Below are positions 1,127-37,497 of a DNA stretch of 37,497 nt, piece after piece; position 1 is the first letter of the stretch, and every line of letters begins with the position of its first letter. Both the position numbers and the translations under genes were made by a program. Origin of the DNA: Methanofollis sp. W23 (GTDB lineage: Archaea > Halobacteriota > Methanomicrobia > Methanomicrobiales > Methanofollaceae); contig NZ_JAGGMN010000002.1 in NCBI RefSeq assembly GCF_017875325.1, forward strand, positions 1 to 37,497, given 5' to 3'. The notes below the pieces were generated by a model that was not told the DNA's origin, did no database searches, and saw only the letters and a list, made by a program, of their open reading frames with translations.

Positions 1127-1132
1127 TGTTTT

Positions 1133-1162
1133 CCTCCTTCGCCGTCCTCAAGAGACGGATCC
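1133..1162 (-). promoter_or_regulatory. GGAT-hairpin leader module
   Basis: On the minus strand the order is GGAT, a 5-bp stem (CCGTC/GACGG, 7-nt loop, plus coordinates 1142-1158), CGAAGGAGG and the start codon of the 52-aa gene. The same order, GGAT - stem-loop - TGAAG - ribosome-binding site, occurs before genes at 33.5-36 kb. A translation-control or RNA-protection element is inferred from position. Confidence 0.5.
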
Positions 1163-1197
1163 GGTAATGCCGGGGGAGAAAATACGCATATGCATTT

Positions 1198-2245: not shown

Positions 2246-2300
2246 TGTGGGGCCACTCGCCCCACAATACTACAATTGTAGGTATAGTATATATAATCTT
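2246..2300 (-). promoter_or_regulatory. Promoter with palindrome and 5'-terminal hairpin
   Basis: Reading leftward: a TATA box (TTATATATA near 2290), the 12-bp palindrome CTACAATTGTAG (2270-2281), an initiator-like TAGTATTGTGG, then an 8-bp perfect stem TGTGGGGC/GCCCCACA (2246-2266) ending at the AGGTGA ribosome-binding site. Archaeal TATA spacing puts the RNA start close to the first G of the hairpin, so the transcript would begin with it. The same initiator occurs in the 35.9-36.1 kb promoters. Confidence 0.6.
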
Positions 2301-33292: not shown

Positions 33293-33549
33293 CCCTGATC
33301 CCTCGCGACGAGGACACAGATCATGGCCCCCTCGTCGGTATCCTCGCGCGTCACGGACGCCCGGTGACGGGTGGCGGCGACGAGATCCCGTACCCCGTCC
33401 TCGATCTCGTCGGCGGGGCGCTCGTATTGGCGAGAGTCCGATAACTTGACCCGCGCGAGACACGCGGGGCAACAGATGTACTGGTCGCCGACGGCCTTCC
33501 CCCGGTAGTTCCAGGCGTGGCCGCACTTGGGACAGGTGCAGAGGGCCAT
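33289..33549 (-). CDS. Zinc-ribbon protein, paralog of 723-983
   Basis: An 86-aa protein with N-terminal ribbon CPKCGHAWNYRGK and CCPACLARVK, similar to the 723-983 protein, and a C-terminal alpha/beta part. Its ATG overlaps the preceding stop by one base. Probably a nucleic-acid-binding accessory; unknown role. Confidence 0.65.
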   Translation of the reverse strand: MALCTCPKCGHAWNYRGKAVGDQYICCPACLARVKLSDSRQYERPADEIEDGVRDLVAATRHRASVTREDTDEGAMICVLVARDQG

Positions 33550-33797
33550 TAGAGGGCCCCCGATCCGCTGCGAGTATTAGGGGTCACGCGGAATACGATC
33601 TCCCCTTTCTTCTCGTCGATCCAGTACCGGAACCGGTACCAGTCTGCGAATCTCCTATGTTCGGGGGTATCCTCCAGTCGCACCACGAACGACGACCGGT
33701 AATTACCATCGTCCTCGGACATATATTCGTACTCCGAGAATCCCGCTGGGATTGGCTCGGAGTATGTGTTCCTGAAATTGGGAATACATTTCTGCAT
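33549..33797 (-). CDS. Hypothetical beta-rich protein (82 aa)
   Basis: MQKCIPNFRNTYSEPIPAGF then acidic/aromatic strands ending RVTPNTRSGSGAL. Not recognised. Preceded by the structured element at 33811-33898; AGGAG lies 8 nt before the ATG. Confidence 0.55.
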   Translation of the reverse strand: MQKCIPNFRNTYSEPIPAGFSEYEYMSEDDGNYRSSFVVRLEDTPEHRRFADWYRFRYWIDEKKGEIVFRVTPNTRSGSGAL

Positions 33798-33810
33798 TTT
33801 TCATCTCCTT

Positions 33811-33898
33811 CCTTCACCGGCCCTTGCGGGCCGGATCCAGAATAAAGCGGCCGGGAGGAGTTAGCACCTCCCGCCGGGGCGTGGTTACCCCTGCCGCT
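33811..33898 (-). ncRNA. Structured intergenic RNA element (E5)
   Basis: Between the stop at 33909 and the ATG at 33797. Transcribed strand: outer stem AGCGGC/GCCGCT; an internal hairpin with GGGG/CCCC arms; then CGGGAGG/CCTCCCG (7 bp, 8-nt loop TGCTAACT) whose 3' strand continues almost directly into the outer stem. After a gap come GGAT and a 7-bp stem CCGGCCC/GGGCCGG with GCAA (GNRA) tetraloop, then TGAAGG and the ribosome-binding site. Same architecture as at 34.6, 35.6 and 36.0 kb. Confidence 0.6.
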
Positions 33899-33908
33899 GC
33901 ACCTCTTC

Positions 33909-34604
33909 TCAGTCCTCCCCGTTGGCCAGGATCCACCCGTCTTCCAGGAGGGCATCCTCCAGGTCATCCGCAGACACACGAGAGAGATAGTCTTCGATTG
34001 CCCTGATCCACTCCTGGTTGTTCTCGGGGCAATCCTCCCGATCCGGGGTCGCCTTCAGGACGACCCGCTCCTCTGCGGGCCCCCCCTTGCCAGCATCCCC
34101 ATTGTCGTTGCGGATCTCTATGGAGAGGTCCGCCTCCTCGTCGGCGATCCCGGTCTCCCCCGTCGCGTACGAGGGGACGGTCATCCTGAAAAACGGCTCC
34201 GACTCCTCCATCCCGTCCCTGCCCTCCGGGGGGAGGCGGTCGGAGTAGTCGCGGAGCGGGATGATGTCCGCGTACCCCTCTGCGGGATACAGGAGGATAT
34301 GGAACTCCCCGATCCACGCCTGATATCCTCCGTTGGAGGTAGAATACCAATCGACCGGGAGAGAGAGGAGGGATTTTAGATCATCCTCGGTGATCTCGAT
34401 CAGGCCGTTGGGGTCGTCCTCGGCCAGAGCCTGCCGGATCTCTCCATCCATCTGCTCGAAGTAGCCCCATTCTAGGGGTACCCCTGCGTACTCGAGGTAC
34501 TCAGATATTGTCATGTTTTCTCGCTCATTGTGATCGATCTTGATCAGCCCCCCGCCATCGAGTCTGATCTCATACTCGCGTCCCTGCGAGTTTTTCAGTC
34601 TCAT
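33909..34604 (-). CDS. Hypothetical, N-terminal domain paralogous to 2959-3366
   Basis: A 231-aa acidic protein. Residues 1-85 (MRLKNSQGREYEIRL onward) resemble the N-terminal domain of the 2959-3366 protein; the DUF2080-like end of that protein is replaced here by unrecognised alpha/beta sequence. AGGTGA precedes the ATG at 34604 by 8 nt. Lies in the 33.5-35.9 kb gene set with structured leaders. Confidence 0.6.
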   Translation of the reverse strand: MRLKNSQGREYEIRLDGGGLIKIDHNERENMTISEYLEYAGVPLEWGYFEQMDGEIRQALAEDDPNGLIEITEDDLKSLLSLPVDWYSTSNGGYQAWIGEFHILLYPAEGYADIIPLRDYSDRLPPEGRDGMEESEPFFRMTVPSYATGETGIADEEADLSIEIRNDNGDAGKGGPAEERVVLKATPDREDCPENNQEWIRAIEDYLSRVSADDLEDALLEDGWILANGED

Positions 34605-34629
34605 TTTTTGATTCACCTCTTTTTTCTCG

Positions 34630-34734
34630 CGGCCCTGTGGCCGGATCCCTATTGGGTTTTCTCGCGCTCGCGCCACCAGGACGCGATGAATGCGGGCCGG
34701 GGGATCGAACCCCGGTTGGGCCTACCCCTCCCGC
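34630..34734 (-). ncRNA. tRNA-like intergenic RNA element (E4)
   Basis: Between the stop ending at 34734 and the ATG at 34604. Transcribed strand: outer stem GCGGG/CCCGC (34730-34734 with 34692-34696) encloses a T-arm-like hairpin, 6-bp stem CCGGGG/CCCCGG with the canonical 7-nt T-loop TTCGATC (34697-34715), its 3' strand running straight into CCCGC: an 11-bp acceptor/T-arm-like helix. D and anticodon arms are absent. Downstream is GGAT with a CGGCC/GGCCG hairpin (34630-34643) and then the ribosome-binding site. Confidence 0.65.
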
Positions 34735-35546
34735 TACCTCTCCAGGGCCGCCCGAAGCGCGGCCAAGTCCTCGCGGAACGCCCCCGCTTCAGATTCGTGG
34801 ATCTCGCCGGTCGCGACCCACTCCTCAACCACGTCCGCAGCTGCGGACAGGTACTCCTCCACGGTCTGCGGGATCTCCCCGCTCTCCCAGACCGCACACT
34901 GGTCGTCCCGGACCGATATCAGCGGGGACGACCACACCACGGGGGCCACCAGCCGCCCCGCACCCCCGTGCGCGTCAGCCCACCGGATCACCTCAGGCCA
35001 GGAGACCCCATCCGGGGAGGAGGAGGGGAGGACCGCGTCGATCCCCTTGATGGCCTCCTCGTACTCTGCGACCTCCTCGGGGGAGATTGAGACGGGCTCC
35101 TCGTGGGCCCACACGTCGAGGGCGAGAGTCACACCCTCCAGCGCGTCGAGTACGGTCGTTGGGATCTCCCCACTCTCCCATACCCAGTACTCGCGCCCGT
35201 CGTAGCAGGGGCGGACCGATACCTCAGGGGAGGCGACGACCTCCTGCACCGCTTTGAGGGCCTCAGGGATGTGCTCTGCGGCCCACTCACGCACCTCATC
35301 GAGGGTGACCGAGCCTGCAGCCCGCACCCGATACATGGGCTCGCCGGTCTCGATGAGCCCCTCCTCGGTGATCCTGCGGATAGTCTCTCCTGGGACGACT
35401 GCGAGGTCGATAGTCTCCCCCTCTCCCTCAAAGGCCCCGATGAGCCCTGCGGGGGTCCAGTCGTCCGCACCGTCGCGGATAATCGCAGTCTCCCCCAACG
35501 GAGCGCACAGACGGCGCACCGCTTCCAATTCCGTCATTACTGTCAT
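34734..35546 (-). CDS. Acidic hypothetical with internal repeat (270 aa)
   Basis: No family recognised. Two related segments, REYWVWESGEIPTTVLDAL and DDQCAVWESGEIPQTVEEYL, about 80 residues apart, each followed by an acidic helical region, show an internal duplication. Highly acidic overall. GGGAGA precedes the ATG at 35546. The stop codon overlaps the outer stem of E4 by one base. Confidence 0.6.
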   Translation of the reverse strand: MTVMTELEAVRRLCAPLGETAIIRDGADDWTPAGLIGAFEGEGETIDLAVVPGETIRRITEEGLIETGEPMYRVRAAGSVTLDEVREWAAEHIPEALKAVQEVVASPEVSVRPCYDGREYWVWESGEIPTTVLDALEGVTLALDVWAHEEPVSISPEEVAEYEEAIKGIDAVLPSSSPDGVSWPEVIRWADAHGGAGRLVAPVVWSSPLISVRDDQCAVWESGEIPQTVEEYLSAAADVVEEWVATGEIHESEAGAFREDLAALRAALER

Positions 35547-35563
35547 GTTCTATCTCCCGTCTT

Positions 35564-35646
35564 CACCCTCCTCGCGAGAGGAGGGATCCAACGCAAGCCC
35601 TGGAGGGGGAGTCGGACCCCCTCGCGGCCACCTGGCCAGGGTACTC
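35564..35646 (-). ncRNA. tRNA-like intergenic RNA element (E1)
   Basis: The 49-bp sequence 35598-35646 is identical to 35999-36047. Transcribed strand: outer stem CCCTG/CAGGG; hairpin GGCC-AGGT-GGCC; then GAGGGGG/CCCCCTC (7 bp) with the 7-nt loop TCCGACT, a T-loop-type sequence, its 3' strand contiguous with the outer stem, giving 12 bp like tRNA acceptor plus T stem. Next come GGAT and an 8-bp hairpin CCCTCCTC/GAGGAGGG (35566-35585), TGAAG and the ribosome-binding site of 34734-35546. It starts at the upstream gene's stop codon. Confidence 0.7.
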
Positions 35647-35863
35647 AGTCGTAGAGGCTATACAGGTCGGGGTCGTCGTCGAGGATCTCGCGGATGAACC
35701 GCTCCAGAGCTTCGGGACTCAGAGGGAGACCCTCCCTCCAAAGAAACCGTGCGAGACTCTCCAGTACCTCCTGGGAGTCGCGGCCCTCGCCCCAATCCCA
35801 GCCAATAACTCCGCTATTGAGGACCTCGGTCCTCGCGTCCGTGATTGTAGTATAGTAACTCAT
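35645..35863 (-). CDS. Small acidic protein (72 aa)
   Basis: MSYYTTITDARTEVLNSGVI and then a helical acidic body (EVLESLARFLWREGLPLSPE) ending DPDLYSLYD. Not recognised. AGGAGA lies 7 nt before the ATG at 35863; an in-frame upstream extension runs through promoter and structured DNA and is rejected. First gene of the leftward series down to 33050. Confidence 0.55.
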   Translation of the reverse strand: MSYYTTITDARTEVLNSGVIGWDWGEGRDSQEVLESLARFLWREGLPLSPEALERFIREILDDDPDLYSLYD

Positions 35864-35870
35864 TATCCAT

Positions 35871-35965
35871 CTCCTGTAGAGCGCAGGGTCGGACCCCCCT
35901 TGGGGCCCCACCCCGCTCCACAATACTATGTTATACATAATACTATATATAACTTCCTCTCCCTT
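35871..35965 (-). promoter_or_regulatory. Promoter P2 and structured leader E3
   Basis: TATATATAG (about 35944-35953), then TATGTATAAC and the initiator TAGTATTGTGG; TATA spacing puts the RNA start at GTGGAGCG. The leader folds as GAGCG/CGCTC around TGGGGCCCCA and a GGG-TCCGA-CCC hairpin, a degenerate relative of E1/E2, and ends at the ribosome-binding site of 35645-35863. Confidence 0.6.
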
Positions 35966-36090
35966 CACCGGTCCCCCGTGGGGACCGGATCCGGGAAACC
36001 CTGGAGGGGGAGTCGGACCCCCTCGCGGCCACCTGGCCAGGGTACTCCATACTACTACATTATACATACAAGTATTTATAATTAACTATC
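35966..36090 (-). ncRNA. Promoter P1 and transcript-initial tRNA-like element (E2)
   Basis: A TATA-like TTATAAATA (about 36078-36086) is followed by TGTATAATGTAGTAGTATGG; the predicted RNA starts at ATGGAG, immediately followed by the exact second copy of the 49-nt element (35999-36047). Downstream are GGAT and a 9-bp stem CCGGTCCCC/GGGGACCGG with a 3-nt loop (35968-35988), then TGAAGG. No gene follows before promoter P2, so this looks like a stand-alone structured RNA; the only frame from the start would be a 36-residue basic peptide. Confidence 0.6.
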
Positions 36091-36104
36091 CGTACCATAT
36101 CAGT

Positions 36105-36138
36105 AAACTATATATAATATTATGTATAAGTTAGTAGT
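36105..36138 (+). promoter_or_regulatory. Promoter P3 (rightward)
   Basis: CTATATATAATATTATGTATAA then TTAGTAGTATGG, a divergent copy of the P1/P2 promoters. The TATA centre lies 26-27 bp before the ATG at 36139, which therefore heads a leaderless mRNA. P1 and P3 are divergent and close, so probably co-regulated. Confidence 0.65.
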
Positions 36139-36564
36139 ATGGAGCATATGGAGCAGAAACAGGTACCTCTCTTCACGGAGGTGGATCTGATTTCGATCTA
36201 CACCAGGGAGGACGCAATTAGAGATGGCCTCCTGGTGGACGTATCAGAGATGGGCCGCGAGGCTGGGTTTAGGATCCCGGTCGCGGTCACGCGAAAGTTG
36301 TGGGACGAGTATATAGTACCTGACCCGCGCTCTGTCCCCTACGGCCAGAGTGTGGACGGTCGCCTCTGGGATACCCTGTGGATGAGCCACCTCGCGGCCC
36401 GCTGCAGGCCGGACACGGACCGCGTGCAGTACAGCGTGCAGTACAAGGTCATCTACATCATGAAAACCGCACAGCGGAGGGGGATCACTCTGGAGATGCG
36501 GGTCGGGGCCGCAGACCCACAGGGTCGCCCCTGCATCACGATCATGCTCCCGGGGGAGGACTGA
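36139..36564 (+). CDS. DUF6573-like protein
   Basis: A 141-aa protein with the run ISIYTREDAIRDGLLVDVSE, then REAGFRIPVAVTRKLWDEY and GRLWDTLWMSHLA, which matches the conserved layout of a phage/plasmid family (DUF6573) of unknown function. The ATG at 36139 coincides with the predicted transcription start. Confidence 0.72.
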   Translation: MEHMEQKQVPLFTEVDLISIYTREDAIRDGLLVDVSEMGREAGFRIPVAVTRKLWDEYIVPDPRSVPYGQSVDGRLWDTLWMSHLAARCRPDTDRVQYSVQYKVIYIMKTAQRRGITLEMRVGAADPQGRPCITIMLPGED

Positions 36565-37337: not shown

Positions 37338-37340
37338 AAT

Positions 37341-37427
37341 TTACCTCGCCTCGCCGTGCCGTGCCTCGCCGTGCCGTGCCTCGCCATGCCAAACCTCACC
37401 TGGCCTTACCATGCCGGGCCTCGCCGC
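37341..37427. repeat. Pentamer array continuing into the junction
   Basis: GCCTC, GCCGT and GCCGT repeat in order, then ACCTC, ACCTG, GCCTT. It joins the array at 1-300 across the circle junction and serves as leader of the 36798-37337 gene on the other strand. Confidence 0.75.
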
Positions 37428-37497
37428 GATCCCCTCACCCTCACGGGATCATCGGGGGAAAGCCGTCATGGAGGTCTGACCCTCCACGGCGGTAAAC

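Follow-up and report, generated by a model that had tools for sequence, protein, structure and literature searches.

Structured RNA elements between the genes of an archaeal virus or episome, including a conserved hairpin beside the Shine-Dalgarno sequence

A leftward gene series at 33.5–36 kb of a small Methanofollis contig has gaps in which the transcribed strand can fold. The sequence-only reading of this DNA took five such elements, E1 to E5, for one family built like the acceptor/T-arm minihelix of a tRNA. The locus therefore raises the question of what these RNA structures are, how far they resemble tRNA, and what they might do for the genes behind them.

The contig and its Y-shaped elements

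The window that we analysed is a whole contig (C2, 37,497 nucleotides) of the two-contig genome of Methanofollis sp. W23; the other contig, C1, holds 2,869,765 of the 2,907,262 bases. Because its ends are identical over 95 bases (1-95 and 37403-37497), C2 is circular and complete. The host genome gave two mcrA matches, which identifies the host as a methanogen. C2 encodes a D5-type primase-helicase, an ATPase-like protein with weak terminase similarity, two DNA methyltransferases, a resolvase, a pilin-like protein and a radical SAM protein, and could be either viral or plasmid in nature. No tRNA was found in the window, and no Rfam family reached its curated cut-off there. Four genes of the leftward series, all with coding-like GC by codon position, are relevant here; a convincing homologue of g270 was not found.

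35645..35863, minus strand: g72, the gene behind E3
34734..35546, minus strand: g270, behind the E2-B2 module (B2 is described below)
33909..34604, minus strand: g231, the gene behind E4
33549..33797, minus strand: g82, the gene behind E5-B5

Structured elements had been claimed for every gap of the series. The three open gaps (g72-g270, g270-g231 and g231-g82) bear this out, whereas the genes further downstream overlap. Each element was folded on the transcribed (minus) strand and compared with 500 shuffles in which base and dinucleotide content were kept. For E1, E2, E4 and E5 the minimum free energy (MFE) fold was a Y, that is, an outer stem around two hairpins, as had been proposed; E3 folds as a rod. 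We refer to the Y-shaped element as A.

35998..36043, minus strand: E1, a Y with a T-arm-like hairpin (loop TCCGACT); MFE fold Y, seen in 2.6% of shuffles
35597..35642, minus strand: E2, a copy of E1; MFE fold Y; begins 3 nt past the g72 stop codon
34692..34734, minus strand: E4, MFE fold Y; canonical T-loop TTCGATC; outer stem begins within the g270 stop codon
33846..33898, minus strand: E5, MFE fold Y, z -3.2; loop TGCTAACT, without a T-loop

A Y fold arose in 2.4-6.2% of the shuffles in these four tests. The folding energy of the Y part was ordinary in E1 (z -1.4), E2 (z -0.8) and E4 (z -1.0); the energies that stand out are those of E5, the E3 rod (z -5.3) and the hairpins of element B described below (z -2.5 to -3.4). 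Once 120-nt flanks were included, the pair probability of the E2 Y fell to about 0.1. The 5′ part of g270 (35401-35423) is 74% complementary over 23 nt to the E2 T-arm (35603-35625), and this stretch may compete with the Y fold of E2. As had been stated, the outer and T helices together span 11-12 bp; the T-hairpin stems are 7 bp in E1 and E2 and 6 bp in E4, all with 7-nt loops. E1 and E2 turned out to be a single 52-nt repeat with 98% identity, which leaves TCCGACT and TTCGATC as the two independent sequences behind the T-loop claim. We also considered stop-codon readthrough stimulated by element A and rejected it: past E4 and E5 the reading frames run into a stop after a few codons.

Resemblance to tRNA

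Known RNase P substrates include tRNA-like structures in MALAT1/MENbeta, in plant mitochondrial t-elements and in some mRNAs (PMC4919922). By analogy, E1, E2 and E4 might be acceptor/T-arm mimics with a mini D-arm, at which RNase P and/or RNase Z cleave the transcript into single-gene mRNAs, as with mascRNA and mitochondrial t-elements. E4 comes closest. It has a canonical T-loop, a 6-bp T-stem and a GG in the neighbouring loop, and at lax thresholds it was the region's best Rfam match, to mascRNA-menRNA (RF01684; 23.8 bits, E = 0.1); E1, E2, E3 and E5 were not among the matches to this family. Like mascRNA/menRNA, E4 combines an outer stem, a small D-like hairpin and a T-arm without an anticodon arm. 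Unlike them, it lies between prokaryotic genes, has a 5-bp acceptor and falls below the curated cut-off of 42.5 bits, and it is the only element that fits. In a genome-wide search with RF01684 the host tRNAs scored 21-27 bits, a range that includes E4, but a tRNA-free 50-nt stretch of the chromosome scored the same as E4.

The loops and stems of the other elements depart further from tRNA. Among the loops described as T-loop-type caps, only that of E4 matches the canonical TTCRANY on a stem of at least 5 bp; the E1/E2 loop TCCGACT deviates, with a C at position 55, and E5, described as a looser relative, has an unrelated loop and was missed by a covariance model of E1/E2 (R2). In E4 this model picked up the T-stem alone (7.9 bits). 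E1 and E4 have an acceptor stem of 5 bp, E2 one of 4-5 bp and E5 one of 6 bp, against the 7 bp of a tRNA, and E1 can be drawn as 7+5 solely by shifting a bulge. CCA was not found at these elements. In E1 and E4 the GG of hairpin 1 can lie opposite T-loop positions 55-56, which are CC and UC, respectively.

A descriptor for acceptor, hairpin and T-arm with a TYCRANY loop matched three sites in the window, two of them independent and all within E1, E2 and E4, and none in 400 kb of host chromosome, the DNA that served as background. The same descriptor with any 7-nt loop matched 109 sites in the window against 99 expected from the host density, indicating that the geometry itself is common. TYCRANY fits about 1 in 512 random 7-nt loops, so that about 0.2 of the 109 sites would be expected to carry it, against the two independent ones; this excess is suggestive, but the pattern was chosen after the loops were known. 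Overall, the T-arm family reading applies at most to E4 and, in a loose sense, to E1/E2. E5 and E3 fall outside it, and the shared tRNA-minihelix family proposed earlier is not supported. Processing of E1, E2 and E4 as tRNA mimics is unlikely, and we retain a tRNA mimic for E4 alone, as a minority hypothesis.

We also asked whether E4 could be an attP site, that is, a tRNA 3′ half captured for integration as in halovirus HF2. Such tRNA-like attP sites occur in archaeal viruses (PMC8707807). The T-arm of E4, however, occurs in no host tRNA, and all of its chromosomal matches carry three mismatches. We rejected this origin, which these findings contradict for this host and which we regard as extremely improbable.

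A conserved hairpin beside the Shine-Dalgarno sequence

Between element A and the start codon lies a second structure, element B, which was absent from the sequence-only reading. It consists of GGAT, a 7-9 bp stem and TGAA(G), enclosed by an outer stem of 4-6 bp. Bit scores for R1, a covariance model trained on B1, B2 and B5, are training-set scores for these three copies.

35957..35996, minus strand: B1, GGAT-9 bp stem-TGAA plus outer stem; R1 59.5 bits; z -3.35
35553..35593, minus strand: B2, GGAT-8 bp stem-TGAA; R1 63.7 bits; z -2.5
33805..33842, minus strand: B5, GGAT-7 bp stem (GCAA loop)-TGAA; R1 61.8 bits; z -3.2
1129..1173, minus strand: weak fourth B-like hairpin, GGAT-CCGTC..GACGG-CGAAGGAGG; R1 23.7 bits

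The outer stem of B2 ends at the Shine-Dalgarno sequence of g270 (GGGAGAT) and that of B5 at the Shine-Dalgarno sequence of g82 (GGAGAT). B1 has no gene directly behind it; a promoter, P2, is found there instead. The E4 gap contains a degraded B only. The fourth site, which was outside the R1 training set, precedes the start of a 52-aa ORF (1126-968); its E value is 1.4e-4 in the window and 0.011 in the genome, and its z is only -0.6. On the chromosome the best R1 match reached at most 17 bits.

B1, B2 and B5 have identical GGATCC...GGTGAAG flanks and differing stems. In their alignment 97% of the cells are paired and 7 of the 12 pairs show double-sided changes, a level that none of 500 shuffles matched; slid registers gave 0-2. 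This covariation is between paralogous copies within one molecule. Three B elements with an inner stem of at least 7 bp occur in the window, against 0.05 expected from Markov-generated sequence, and the pair probability is near 1 throughout the three copies except in the outer stem of B5. Selection on RNA structure, for which the earlier reading had argued, is supported, and best by B. RNA structure in these gaps is real, while a family of tRNA look-alikes is weakly supported. B, for which no Rfam counterpart was found, is a new conserved RNA shape.

The internal loop of B is a symmetric, G.A-rich 4x4 loop, conserved in all three copies, and its GGAU and UGAA strands can, judging from their sequence, pair through a run of G.A pairs plus a U.U pair. 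The nearest studied parallel is the l7ae leader, in which a k-turn lies beside the Shine-Dalgarno sequence (PMC5539422). Like the L7Ae-regulated archaeal leaders, B is a hairpin that adjoins the Shine-Dalgarno sequence and, by sequence, has G.A pairs (core GAU/UGA), arranged in tandem beside the non-canonical stem in B1, B2 and B5. Unlike those leaders (PMC5539422), it lacks the 3-nt bulge, its 4x4 loop being symmetric in every copy. We therefore rejected B as a k-turn. A k-turn scan of the window did not match B and returned only two copies of a repeat near the contig ends; the same scan gave two matches in 400 kb of host DNA.

These repeat copies, at 172-198 and 29-55 (= 37431-37457), both on the minus strand, form a textbook k-turn hairpin, CCCC-GAT-GAT-CCC-G(T/C)GA-GGG-TGA-GGGG, with loops that differ by one base and are both GNRA. 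They are likely to be an L7Ae site upstream of a gene for a 179-aa protein. A degenerate tandem repeat, GGCGAGGCACGGCAC (37340-37420, minus strand), lies between them and that gene.

The earlier reading had proposed a covariance search for relatives elsewhere, and no credible one emerged among 232 genomes of the order and viral contigs. R1 and R2 gave no convincing match outside the window in those genomes; the weak R1 matches that we read were coding-looking or random, and the weak R2 matches to A that we read had no Y fold. Pattern scans of viral contigs and of a species-wide genome collection returned 56, 28 and 37 stretches, and convincing inner and outer stems were absent from all of them; these scans demand exact GGATCC and GGTGAAG, and diverged relatives could be missed. 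A few loose matches were judged to be due to chance. Relatives of g270, the ATPase and the primase were not found in viral contigs. Relatives of the 179-aa protein are carried by 14 viral contigs; the stretches fetched from these contained neither A nor B, and among the genes tested only the 179-aa gene was common to them. A and B are orphans within what was searched.

Could the elements act as DNA? Protein-binding or recombination repeats, or drifting duplicates of cassettes, might fold as RNA simply as a by-product of palindromes. E1/E2 is a near-identical, discrete 52-nt unit, and a promoter cassette is duplicated too. Repeated intergenic sequences and duplicated promoters recall halovirus HF2, but the HF2 repeats are AT-rich promoters, whereas the C2 elements are GC-rich RNA folds (PMC8707807). 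Against a DNA-level role, all B copies lie on the sense strand, immediately ahead of a Shine-Dalgarno sequence or a promoter, with an asymmetric loop sequence preserved, and on the complementary strand R1 scores no more than the bare stem. We consider a DNA-level origin quite unlikely.

Predicted promoters and proposed structured leaders

TATA boxes were found on the minus strand at 36081 (P1, TTATAAAT), 35952 (P2, spanning 35952-35945) and 2296 (P0). Assuming a TATA box at -31, transcription would start at 36050, 35921 and 2265, respectively, positions that follow from TATA spacing. E1 begins about 7 nt past the predicted P1 start. For both P2 and P0 the predicted +1 is the first base of a stem.

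35876..35921, minus strand: E3, a rod forming the 5′-terminal stem of the predicted P2 transcript, GUGGAGCG...CGCUCUAC
2247..2265, minus strand: P0 leader, a blunt 5′-terminal hairpin, GUGGGGC-GAGUG-GCCCCAC, then AGGUGAUGGAGAUG; z -3.65

Both stems are followed directly by AGG(A/U)GAU, a Shine-Dalgarno sequence; the E3 stem continues into AGGAGAUGG-AUAAUG. E3 had been listed as another looser relative of the Y elements. Its rod has an MFE of -37.7 kcal/mol against -9.8 kcal/mol for the Y, so that a forced Y is 28 kcal/mol worse, and we rejected that kinship. A stem ends at the Shine-Dalgarno sequence in B2, B5, the P0 leader and the P2 leader; conserved RNA structure directly 5′ of the Shine-Dalgarno sequence, as expected of a structured archaeal mRNA leader, is present. 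A pattern scan for leaders of the P0/P2 type found none.

The promoter cassette, from the TATA box to TAGTAGTATGGAG, occurs three times (36045-36145 and 35916-35962). P1 and P2 are on the minus strand, and P3 is divergent and serves the gene for a DUF6573 protein (36139-36564, plus strand; E 2.8e-21), which occurs on Xanthomonas plasmids too. From their predicted starts the P1 and P3 RNAs would begin AUGGAG, and P3 may accordingly be leaderless. A possible leaderless 35-aa ORF (MEYPGQVAARGSDSPSRV...) would run from the P1 +1 through E1 and B1; we found nothing else that speaks for it.

We propose that an archaeal episome or virus here uses these elements as modular, structured leaders of its mRNAs to control translation and/or mRNA ends, an explanation to which we give an even chance. 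Each of g270, g231 and g82 is preceded by an element A at or just past the previous stop codon; in front of g270 and g82, A is followed by B, whose outer helix ends at the Shine-Dalgarno sequence, and in the predicted P0 and P2 transcripts a stem at the predicted +1 leads directly into a Shine-Dalgarno sequence. In this arrangement B would set the ribosome-binding site in a defined context beside a recognisable G.A-rich loop, and could be read by a protein, encoded by the host or the element, or by the 30S subunit, thereby setting how far each gene is translated. A and the 5′-terminal stems may shield or define mRNA ends. The conserved loop, covarying stems and position of B, and the foldability and position of A, are observed; the promoter starts, recognition by a protein and any effect on translation or stability are inferred. 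Resemblance to a T-arm is not required. The version that does require it, in which tRNA-like minihelices are intercistronic processing signals and, with the adjacent B, give each gene of the polycistron its own leader, has only a slim chance of being right.

A simpler explanation is that these are unspecific GC-rich hairpins, stabilising or intercistronic, that protect mRNA ends or serve as targets of a general endonuclease, with no dedicated recognition. Early mRNA of phage T7 carries intercistronic RNase III hairpins, and in both cases repeated structured elements lie between genes of a small DNA element; archaeal nucleases differ, however, and cleavage of the C2 elements is hypothetical. 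The location of the elements, in gaps and at predicted +1 positions, fits such hairpins; the Y and rod shapes differ, and stable structure alone is common to them. Stability by itself, on the other hand, needs no internal loop and flanks that stay identical while the stems vary, as they do in B. We regard unspecific hairpins as possible but doubtful.

If RNase P or RNase Z were found to cut E4, mascRNA-type processing would have a counterpart in prokaryotes. Structured leader RNAs have been little described in archaeal viruses and plasmids. Because it is compact and has no Rfam counterpart, and combines a conserved loop and covarying stems with a fixed place at the ribosome-binding site, B makes a concrete candidate for an RNA through which an archaeal mobile element exerts post-transcriptional control.
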